In this document: piece by piece, positions 15,417-16,425 of the stretch
How positions within the stretch are numbered: the first letter of the stretch is position 1
Layout: each line of letters starts with the position of its first letter
Assembly (NCBI RefSeq): GCF_003660165.1
Contig: NZ_CP032829.1
Location: 496,001 to 560,000, forward strand
Origin: Sphingomonas paeninsulae
GTDB lineage: Bacteria; Pseudomonadota; Alphaproteobacteria; Sphingomonadales; Sphingomonadaceae
Reading direction: 5' to 3'
DNA: 64,000 bases
The notes under the pieces: generated by a model
What the model was told of the DNA's origin: nothing
Database searches by the model: none
What the model saw: only the letters and a program-made list of their open reading frames with translations
Program-made: the position numbers and the translations under genes

Positions 15417-15671
15417 ATGTTCTCGCTCGGCTGCTTCCTGGTAATATTGTCACCAATCGTCGGTGCGATACCTGGCCCCGGCGGTATGTTTGTGTTCGCG
15501 GCCGGATTTGGGTTGATGCTGCGTTATTCGAAATGGGTGAAGCGGCGTTATGTGCTGTTCAAGCGGCGCTGGCCGAAACATGGTCGCTGGACAGACTGGG
15601 GCCTGCGCCGCGCCAGCGCAAAGCGTCGTGCAGAACGAAAAGCTCGCCTCTCGGAGTCCAGAAGCGATTGA
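15417..15671 (+). CDS. Small membrane protein with PGPGG motif
   Basis: This 84-residue protein has one hydrophobic hairpin-like segment (residues about 2-35) containing IPGPGG, followed by a very basic tail rich in Arg and Lys (WVKRRYVLFKRRW onward). It resembles the small PGPGW-type inner-membrane proteins found near yidC/rnpA in other bacteria. The function is unknown. The start is the ATG at 15417; an in-frame GTG at 15405 would add four residues. It is followed by a terminator, so it is separate from the rpmH unit. Confidence 0.65.
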   Translation: MFSLGCFLVILSPIVGAIPGPGGMFVFAAGFGLMLRYSKWVKRRYVLFKRRWPKHGRWTDWGLRRASAKRRAERKARLSESRSD

Positions 15672-15705
15672 CTTTTGTTCGGGACCGCCATAGTGCCGCT
15701 CCAAC

Positions 15706-15735
15706 GGTCGTCCCCCTGGGGCGACCTTTTCTTTT
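15706..15735 (+). terminator. Intrinsic terminator upstream of rpmH
   Basis: GGTCG-TCCCC pairs with GGGG-CGACC (one bulged T, two-base loop), followed by TTTTCTTTT on the plus strand. It ends the small membrane protein transcript. Because it stands only 20-27 bases before the rnpA and rpmH starts, it could also act as an attenuator of the L34 operon if the promoter lies upstream of it. Confidence 0.8.
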
Positions 15736-15754
15736 CAAAGTTTCGTATCAGGGC

Positions 15755-16219
15755 ATGAGCGATGAAGCGCACTTTTCAGCCGAGCAATCTAGTTCGCGCA
15801 CGACGTCACGGTTTCCGTCATCGGATGTCGACAGTAGGCGGTCGTGCAGTAATCCGCGCCCGTCGGGCACGCGGACGCATAAAGCTGTCCGCCTAAAAAC
15901 TGTTTCGGCCCGCAAGGATTTCCTTGCGGCTAACAGTGCCAAGCGACGGGCAACCTCTGGTTTTGTTCTGTTGGTGCGTGATCGCGCTGACGGAAGCCAA
16001 GCCAAGCGACTCGGCATTACCGTCACCAAAAAAATTGGCAATGCCGTCGTGCGTAACCGCATGAAGCGGCGTTTTCGTGCGCTTGCTCGCGAAGTCATTG
16101 CCGATGGCGGTTTTGTTGGTAGCGACCATATCCTTATCGGACGCGCTGGCGGCGTCGAGCGCGATTATGCGACCTTGCGCGACGATTTGACGCGGGCGGT
16201 CGCCAAACTTGCCACATGA
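15755..16219 (+). CDS. rnpA: Ribonuclease P protein component, overlapping rpmH
   Basis: RnpA is the protein subunit of RNase P, which matures tRNA 5' ends. The core is clear from about residue 47 ([14 protein letters not shown]) to RNRMKRR at 100-106, the RNA-binding RNR motif. Between the end of rpmH and this core there is no ATG, GTG or TTG in frame; the only start that keeps the core whole is the ATG at 15755, seven bases before rpmH. The protein would then be 154 residues with a 46-residue polar, Ser/Arg-rich extension encoded across rpmH. The same nested layout is known in Thermus. A missing base or an unusual start codon is the alternative. The gene overlaps yidD by four bases. Confidence 0.85.
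15762..15896 (+). CDS. rpmH: 50S ribosomal protein L34
   Basis: This 44-residue ribosomal protein L34 has the full family pattern: MKRTFQPSN start, [20 protein letters not shown] and the KLSA end. L34 is a late-assembling protein of the large subunit. The reading frame is too short for most gene callers. The whole gene lies inside the upstream-extended reading frame of rnpA (different frame), with its ATG seven bases after the only available rnpA start, so both share one ribosome-binding region (CAGGGC). Confidence 0.97.
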
Positions 16220-16425
16220 AACAAATTCTCATCTGGATAGCAAAAGGCTGGCAGCGCGGACCGTCGCTGATCTTGCCGCCGACTTGTCGTTATGCTCCCA
16301 GTTGTTCGGCCTACGCCATCGAAGCCATCGAGCGCCACGGCGCTTTGCACGGTGGCTGGCTGACGCTCAAACGCATCCTGCGCTGTCACCCATGGGGCGG
16401 CAGCGGTTTCGACCCTGTACCCTAA
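16216..16425 (+). CDS. yidD: Membrane protein insertion efficiency factor YidD
   Basis: This 69-residue YidD protein has the family cysteine pattern [11 protein letters not shown], the amphipathic N terminus [10 protein letters not shown], and the end [21 protein letters not shown]. It helps membrane protein insertion together with YidC. It overlaps the end of rnpA by four bases (ATGA) and is followed after 12 bases by yidC, the usual operon order. Confidence 0.96.

Follow-up and report, generated by a model that had tools for sequence, protein, structure and literature searches.

The rpmH-rnpA locus of Sphingomonas paeninsulae is very probably a nested pair, in which rnpA begins at an ATG at position 15755 and encloses the whole of rpmH, a single Shine-Dalgarno (SD) motif would serve both AUGs, and an RnpA with a disordered tail would be made in a low-ratio tie to ribosomal protein L34. 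Positions are those of the window, by which we mean the whole 64,000-nucleotide stretch analysed (contig NZ_CP032829.1, positions 496,001 to 560,000, forward strand). Judged from its sequence, the locus is apparently an independent and widely conserved occurrence of the arrangement found in Thermus. Its anatomy, its conservation among relatives, the frame-keeping of insertions and deletions between the two genes and the absence of other starts were all observed directly.

Gene arrangement in the window

The product of rpmH belongs to the L34 family, as it scored 74.6 bits against TIGR01030 (curated cut-off 37.65), and the product of rnpA is an RNase P protein, with 66.8 bits against PF00825 (curated cut-off 22.3) and 55.7 bits against TIGR00188 over residues 52-152 (cut-off 38.35). 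The features of the locus are collected in Table 1.

Table 1 Features of the rpmH-rnpA locus in the window
Feature	Position	Strand	Remarks
TTGACT, -35-like box of the likely rpmH/rnpA promoter	15668..15673	+	called from conservation of TTGAC
Leader hairpin with T-rich tail	15706..15736	+	9-bp stem (15706-15726), near the predicted mRNA 5' end
AGGG, SD-like	15750..15753	+	spacing to the ATG 8 nt for rpmH and 1 nt for rnpA
rnpA, predicted extended form	15755..16219	+	154 aa; start ATG 15755, stop TGA 16217-16219
Coding stretch of the N-terminal extension	15755..15898	+	residues 1-48, ahead of the PF00825 match, which starts at residue 49
rpmH (L34, 44 aa)	15762..15896	+	wholly nested in rnpA, in a different frame
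RnpA conserved domain, PF00825	15899..16210	+	residues 49-152
Next ORF	16216..16425	+	its ATG overlaps the rnpA stop (ATGA)

A first-pass annotation made from the letters alone had claimed that the rnpA frame stays open across rpmH as far as the ATG at 15755, 7 nt ahead of the rpmH ATG, that this gives an RnpA of 154 residues, and that no ATG, GTG or TTG stands between the rpmH stop and the RnpA core. All of this was borne out: the segment translates without a stop into 154 aa, and the codons between the rpmH stop and the core (CTA AAA ACT GTT TCG GCC) include none of these three starts, nor CTG, ATT, ATC or ATA. The frame also continues open upstream of 15755, up to an ATG at 15533 (which would give 228 aa), and there is a TTG at 15668 too; as the predicted transcript lies downstream of both, no in-frame ATG, GTG or TTG other than 15755 is expected in the mRNA ahead of the core. 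Within the core itself, the available starts are a TTG at +74 and a GTG at +77 after the rpmH stop, and their use would delete R53, A58, N60 and R64, four residues that are invariant across 54 aligned nested RnpA proteins. Genome searches found one RnpA and one rnpB (a type-A RNase P RNA), and the rnpA of the window should therefore be the working gene.

Loci surveyed and distribution of the nested form

We kept the best 80 of 490 confirmed RnpA-core matches, nearly all of them titled as sphingomonads, and added loci from further genomes. Of 191 loci collected in this way, two without rpmH (L027 and L029, both beginning at a contig edge) and two from the same place without an RnpA match (L096 and L112) were left out, and 16 duplicates were merged, which left 171 distinct rpmH-rnpA loci: the window copy, 77 named loci, in 68 of which the nested form is present, and 93 others. 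An ATG stands exactly at -7 relative to the rpmH ATG in 106 of the 171. The first-pass annotation had suggested aligning close relatives to see whether the extended frame stays open, and it does in 105 of these 106 loci, the RnpA core lying in the frame of the -7 ATG with no stop between them; the congeneric loci L002, L003 and L063 are among the 105. L038 is the sole locus with an ATG at -7 whose frame is lost, and it has later ATGs. In that locus the ORF from the retained -7 ATG has 65 codons and stops 56 nt beyond the rpmH stop, and the later ATGs precede RnpA.

The nested class (n = 106) was defined as the 105 in-frame loci plus L042, which has an in-frame TTG at -7. The other 65 loci were split on their RnpA model score into 50 family-like loci (>100) and 15 outgroup loci, although one of the latter, L124, belongs to the window's family. 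Of the nested and family-like loci together, 106 of 156 have an ATG at offset 7, and not one has an ATG at offsets 3-6 or 8-14.

We also scanned the order and the class with an exact rpmH pattern, which misses other spellings of the gene. The pattern was present in 227 of 296 genomes of the order, and 68 of these have the form with the -7 ATG, all of them in the window's family and spread over 12 of 80 genera; in the class it was present in 74 of 289 genomes, and the 70 of these that come from outside the family all lack the -7 ATG. The nested form occurs in records titled Sphingomonas, Sphingobium, Hephaestia, Parasphingopyxis and Allosphingosinicella, among others. On a tree rooted with an outgroup of our choice, nested loci lie near the base of the family, a clade of 28 loci is without the trait, and at least 12 changes between the nested and non-nested states are needed; our reading is an early origin of the nested start followed by several losses, on a weak tree that leaves gain versus loss unsettled.

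Start codons available to rnpA

After the -7 position and before the core, there is no ATG, GTG or TTG in 75 of the 106 nested loci, compared with 5 of the 65 others (Fisher 4e-17) or 5 of the 50 family-like loci alone (2e-13), both values being uncorrected for kinship. The predicted promoter could be placed in 105 of the nested loci. In 56 of them, the -7 codon is the sole in-frame start of the predicted transcript, 30 have a start after rpmH, and 19 have one upstream of or inside it. The five startless loci that are not nested (L099, L100, L101, L128 and L141) have no ATG, GTG or TTG after or inside rpmH before the core, so that uncommon start codons, or errors of our script in placing the core end, do occur, which counts somewhat against the nested reading. 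Four other non-nested loci (L066, L103, L120 and L131) have their only in-frame starts before the core inside rpmH, in the third frame, a partial overlap of a different kind.

A further qualification comes from nested loci in which a later start is present. No ATG, GTG or TTG follows rpmH before the core in 76 of the 106 nested loci, but one is present in the other 30, 6 nt before the core in 18 of them, and in these species it could be the real start. It is also conceivable that both starts are used there, the -7 ATG giving the extended protein and the later one a second RnpA of ordinary length; this would be compatible with the nested reading, and we consider it possible, though on balance somewhat doubtful, for part of the family. 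For the window and 75 other nested loci, such a dual use is impossible with ordinary starts. Nine loci that sit among nested ones on the tree are without the -7 start or its frame, and all of them offer a start farther on (L013, L028, L048, L056, L061, L077 (GTG at +17), L145, L038 and L044), the GTG at +17 being that of the Rhizorhabdus-like loci. The association of a lost -7 start with a later start is suggestive, since tree-aware pairing gave three supported independent contrasts and was not significant.

Alternatively, RnpA might start after rpmH at a rare codon (CTG, ATT, ATC, ATA or another) through translational coupling, the -7 ATG and the open frame being incidental. Such a codon does lie between the rpmH stop and the core in 59 of the 76 nested loci that have no ATG, GTG or TTG after rpmH, and a CTG that overlaps the rpmH stop (CTGA) is present in 29 of 75. 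However, even CTG, ATT, ATC and ATA are absent from this interval in 17 of the 75 startless nested loci, the window included, and a rare start would leave unexplained both the -7 ATG, with its absence from every other offset from 3 to 14, and the frame-keeping of the spacers described below. We therefore regard it as improbable.

Spacer lengths and the frame through rpmH

Between the rpmH stop and the RnpA core, the loci with a -7 ATG show 19 different spacer lengths, and 18 of these are in frame. The 18 in-frame lengths range from 11 to 122 nt (n = 105) and are all 2 mod 3, the commonest being 11 nt, in 45 of the 105. The non-nested family-like spacers have 35 distinct lengths with residues mod 3 of 15/15/5 and follow no frame rule. 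On a tree of 170 of the 171 loci, nested rows require 42 changes of spacer length, and non-nested family-like rows require 36, including 17 changes of frame. This tree was built from short proteins and is weak, and collapsing its weak branches also gave 42, which is not a lower bound on polytomies; the safe figure for the nested loci is at least 17 length changes, from the 18 distinct lengths. Among the 55 nested loci whose spacer reaches 20 nt or more, none has a stop in the rnpA frame, whereas stops close the remaining two frames in 8 and 21 of them. A spacer that keeps its frame and stays free of stops looks like one that is translated.

The open frame across rpmH is a different matter, and we rejected it as proof because it is weak: the same frame is also open in 41 of the 50 non-nested family-like loci, against 18.1 expected from within-gene synonymous shuffling. 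The corresponding figures are 106 of 106 (by definition) against 72.0 for nested loci and 4 of 15 against 3.0 for the outgroup. In none of the 171 loci is the remaining alternative frame of rpmH open, because ATGAA contains TGA, as is evident by inspection. Variability at the synonymous sites of rpmH is only a little lower in nested than in non-nested loci (mean entropy 0.952 vs 1.081 bits, 42 columns), so that little selection on the residues of the tail shows; selection on the tail amino acids was likewise rejected, the drop in third-position entropy being only slight, and we claim no conserved function for them. In the structure prediction, pLDDT is below 50 for RnpA residues 1-32 and 41-44 and about 90 in the core, and matches to solved RnpA structures start no earlier than residue 44. 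The predicted extension thus looks disordered and weakly conserved, and we think that the tail is tolerated rather than selected.

Two further explanations are almost certainly wrong. Frameshifting out of rpmH into an L34-RnpA fusion has as its sole support the overlap of two frames throughout rpmH, but it has no need of an ATG at -7, the fusion would consume L34, and we saw by eye no slippery run at the end of rpmH in the window, the one locus inspected. A base missing from the assembly, with rnpA truly starting just after rpmH, draws on nothing beyond the missing start, and since the open frame is kept in relatives, with the identical frame relation in 104 other distinct loci, such an error is not the cause.

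Likely promoter, leader hairpin and Shine-Dalgarno-like motif

In raw counts, a TTGAC motif lies in the upstream 150 nt of every one of 105 nested and 50 non-nested family-like loci, and of 10 of the 15 outgroup loci. A consensus promoter scan found no promoter, and the promoter call is thus based on this conservation. The stop codon of the upstream ORF (TGA, 15669-15671) sits within the TTGACT box.

The leader hairpin, which the first-pass annotation had also pointed out, proved to be real, and the segment 15701-15775 folds at -26.1 kcal/mol (z -2.52). A terminator-like hairpin with a T-rich tail is present in 94 of 105 nested loci (8.2 expected after single-base shuffling), in 37 of 50 non-nested family-like loci (5.1 expected) and in 2 of 15 from the outgroup (0.0 expected), and it begins 36-47 nt past TTGAC in 87 of the 94 nested and 31 of the 37 family-like cases. 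Because it is common to nested and non-nested relatives, the hairpin is a separate trait from nesting, and if TTGAC is the -35 box, it lies at the extreme 5' end of the mRNA, where it may act as an attenuator or stabilise the 5' end. Rfam listed no match over the hairpin or the rpmH/rnpA start; the one listed match overlapping rnpA, MIR4374, was rejected, as its 22.7 bits are far below the gathering score of 105 bits.

The start region of the window reads AGGG, c, ATG, agcg, ATG. In 105 of the 106 nested loci, the SD motif has an aligned spacing of 5-9 nt to the rpmH ATG, which leaves a spacing to the rnpA ATG of roughly -2 to +2 nt; 29 of the 106 offer no better SD word than GGA, and their register is uncertain. 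One SD for two close AUGs is thus what both the sequence and the spacing give.

Proposed mechanism and known systems

We propose that a single mRNA with a single SD motif serves two AUGs 7 nt apart. Most ribosomes would settle at the second AUG, which has the normal SD spacing, and make L34, while a minority would initiate at the first AUG, directly adjoining the SD, and translate the other frame across rpmH and on into RnpA. From the general rules of initiation, the second AUG should win, and the spacing, suited to rpmH and leaving the SD directly against the rnpA ATG, accordingly predicts much L34 and little RnpA, which matches the needs of the cell. The RNase P protein made in this way would carry a disordered N-terminal tail of about 48 residues in the window and more in some species, and its output would be tied to that of L34 at a low ratio. 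Initiation at 15755, the L34:RnpA ratio, the coupling and the fate of the tail, kept or trimmed, are what we infer from the layout. The nested interpretation of the first-pass annotation is supported at the level of sequence; its suggestion that L34 and RNase P output are coupled would fit the shared SD and is inferred in the same way. A fuller account, in which the layout is an old trait of the Sphingomonadaceae that arose independently of Thermus, was lost several times when a new downstream rnpA start appeared, and acts as a fixed-ratio splitter of ribosomes whose two outputs the leader hairpin could set, is plausible, but we would stop a little short of calling it probable.

Feltens et al. 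reportedly described in 2003 an rpmH nested in the rnpA of Thermus thermophilus, and Thermus belongs to a different phylum from the organism of the window. According to PMC9841429, rpmH is fully nested in rnpA in T. thermophilus with the AUGs 4 nt apart (5'-AUGGAUG-3'), expression of both genes has been demonstrated, and the pair was the only bacterial case described before the E. coli examples of that paper itself (2022); PMC4892627 names it as one of the two nested gene pairs of which its authors were aware. The likeness to Thermus that the first-pass annotation had asserted is well founded as far as these sources describe the system: in both, rpmH lies wholly inside the rnpA frame, two AUGs stand a few nucleotides apart and one SD serves them by sequence and spacing. 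The phase is also the same, AUG spacings of 4 and 7 both being 1 mod 3, and the single alternative frame of rpmH that can be open fits this. Unlike in the Thermus pair as reported there, the AUGs of the window are 7 nt apart and the SD abuts the first of them, many relatives are without the layout, and the case is read from sequence. With the rpmH-rnpA-yidD-yidC operon of E. coli and many Gram-negatives, as outlined in PMC10941002, the window shares the order rpmH-rnpA and a single PF00825 core, but it has no ordinary start after rpmH. The AUGUG sites of E. coli pqiA and tamA, as given in PMC9841429, likewise indicate that one start region can serve two frames, although there the start codons overlap, whereas the window has two AUGs 7 nt apart and two conserved genes. 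In a literature search of titles and abstract openings, no nested rpmH/rnpA outside Thermus appeared among the matches listed, and a search for Sphingomonas and ribosome profiling, read in the same way, gave nothing that looked related among its listed matches.

If the nested reading is true, this would be a second case, spread across much of a family with natural gains or losses, which would indicate that the layout can arise repeatedly. It would also offer mesophilic species for measuring the choice of initiation between two out-of-phase genes of the core machinery, and RnpA N termini assigned in these species by an ordinary start rule would be incorrect.

The names of the genes that follow rnpA in the window are presumed from gene order, by which the next ORF (16216-16425) would be yidD-like. 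Its overlap with the rnpA stop (16216-16219) suggests coupling farther down the operon.
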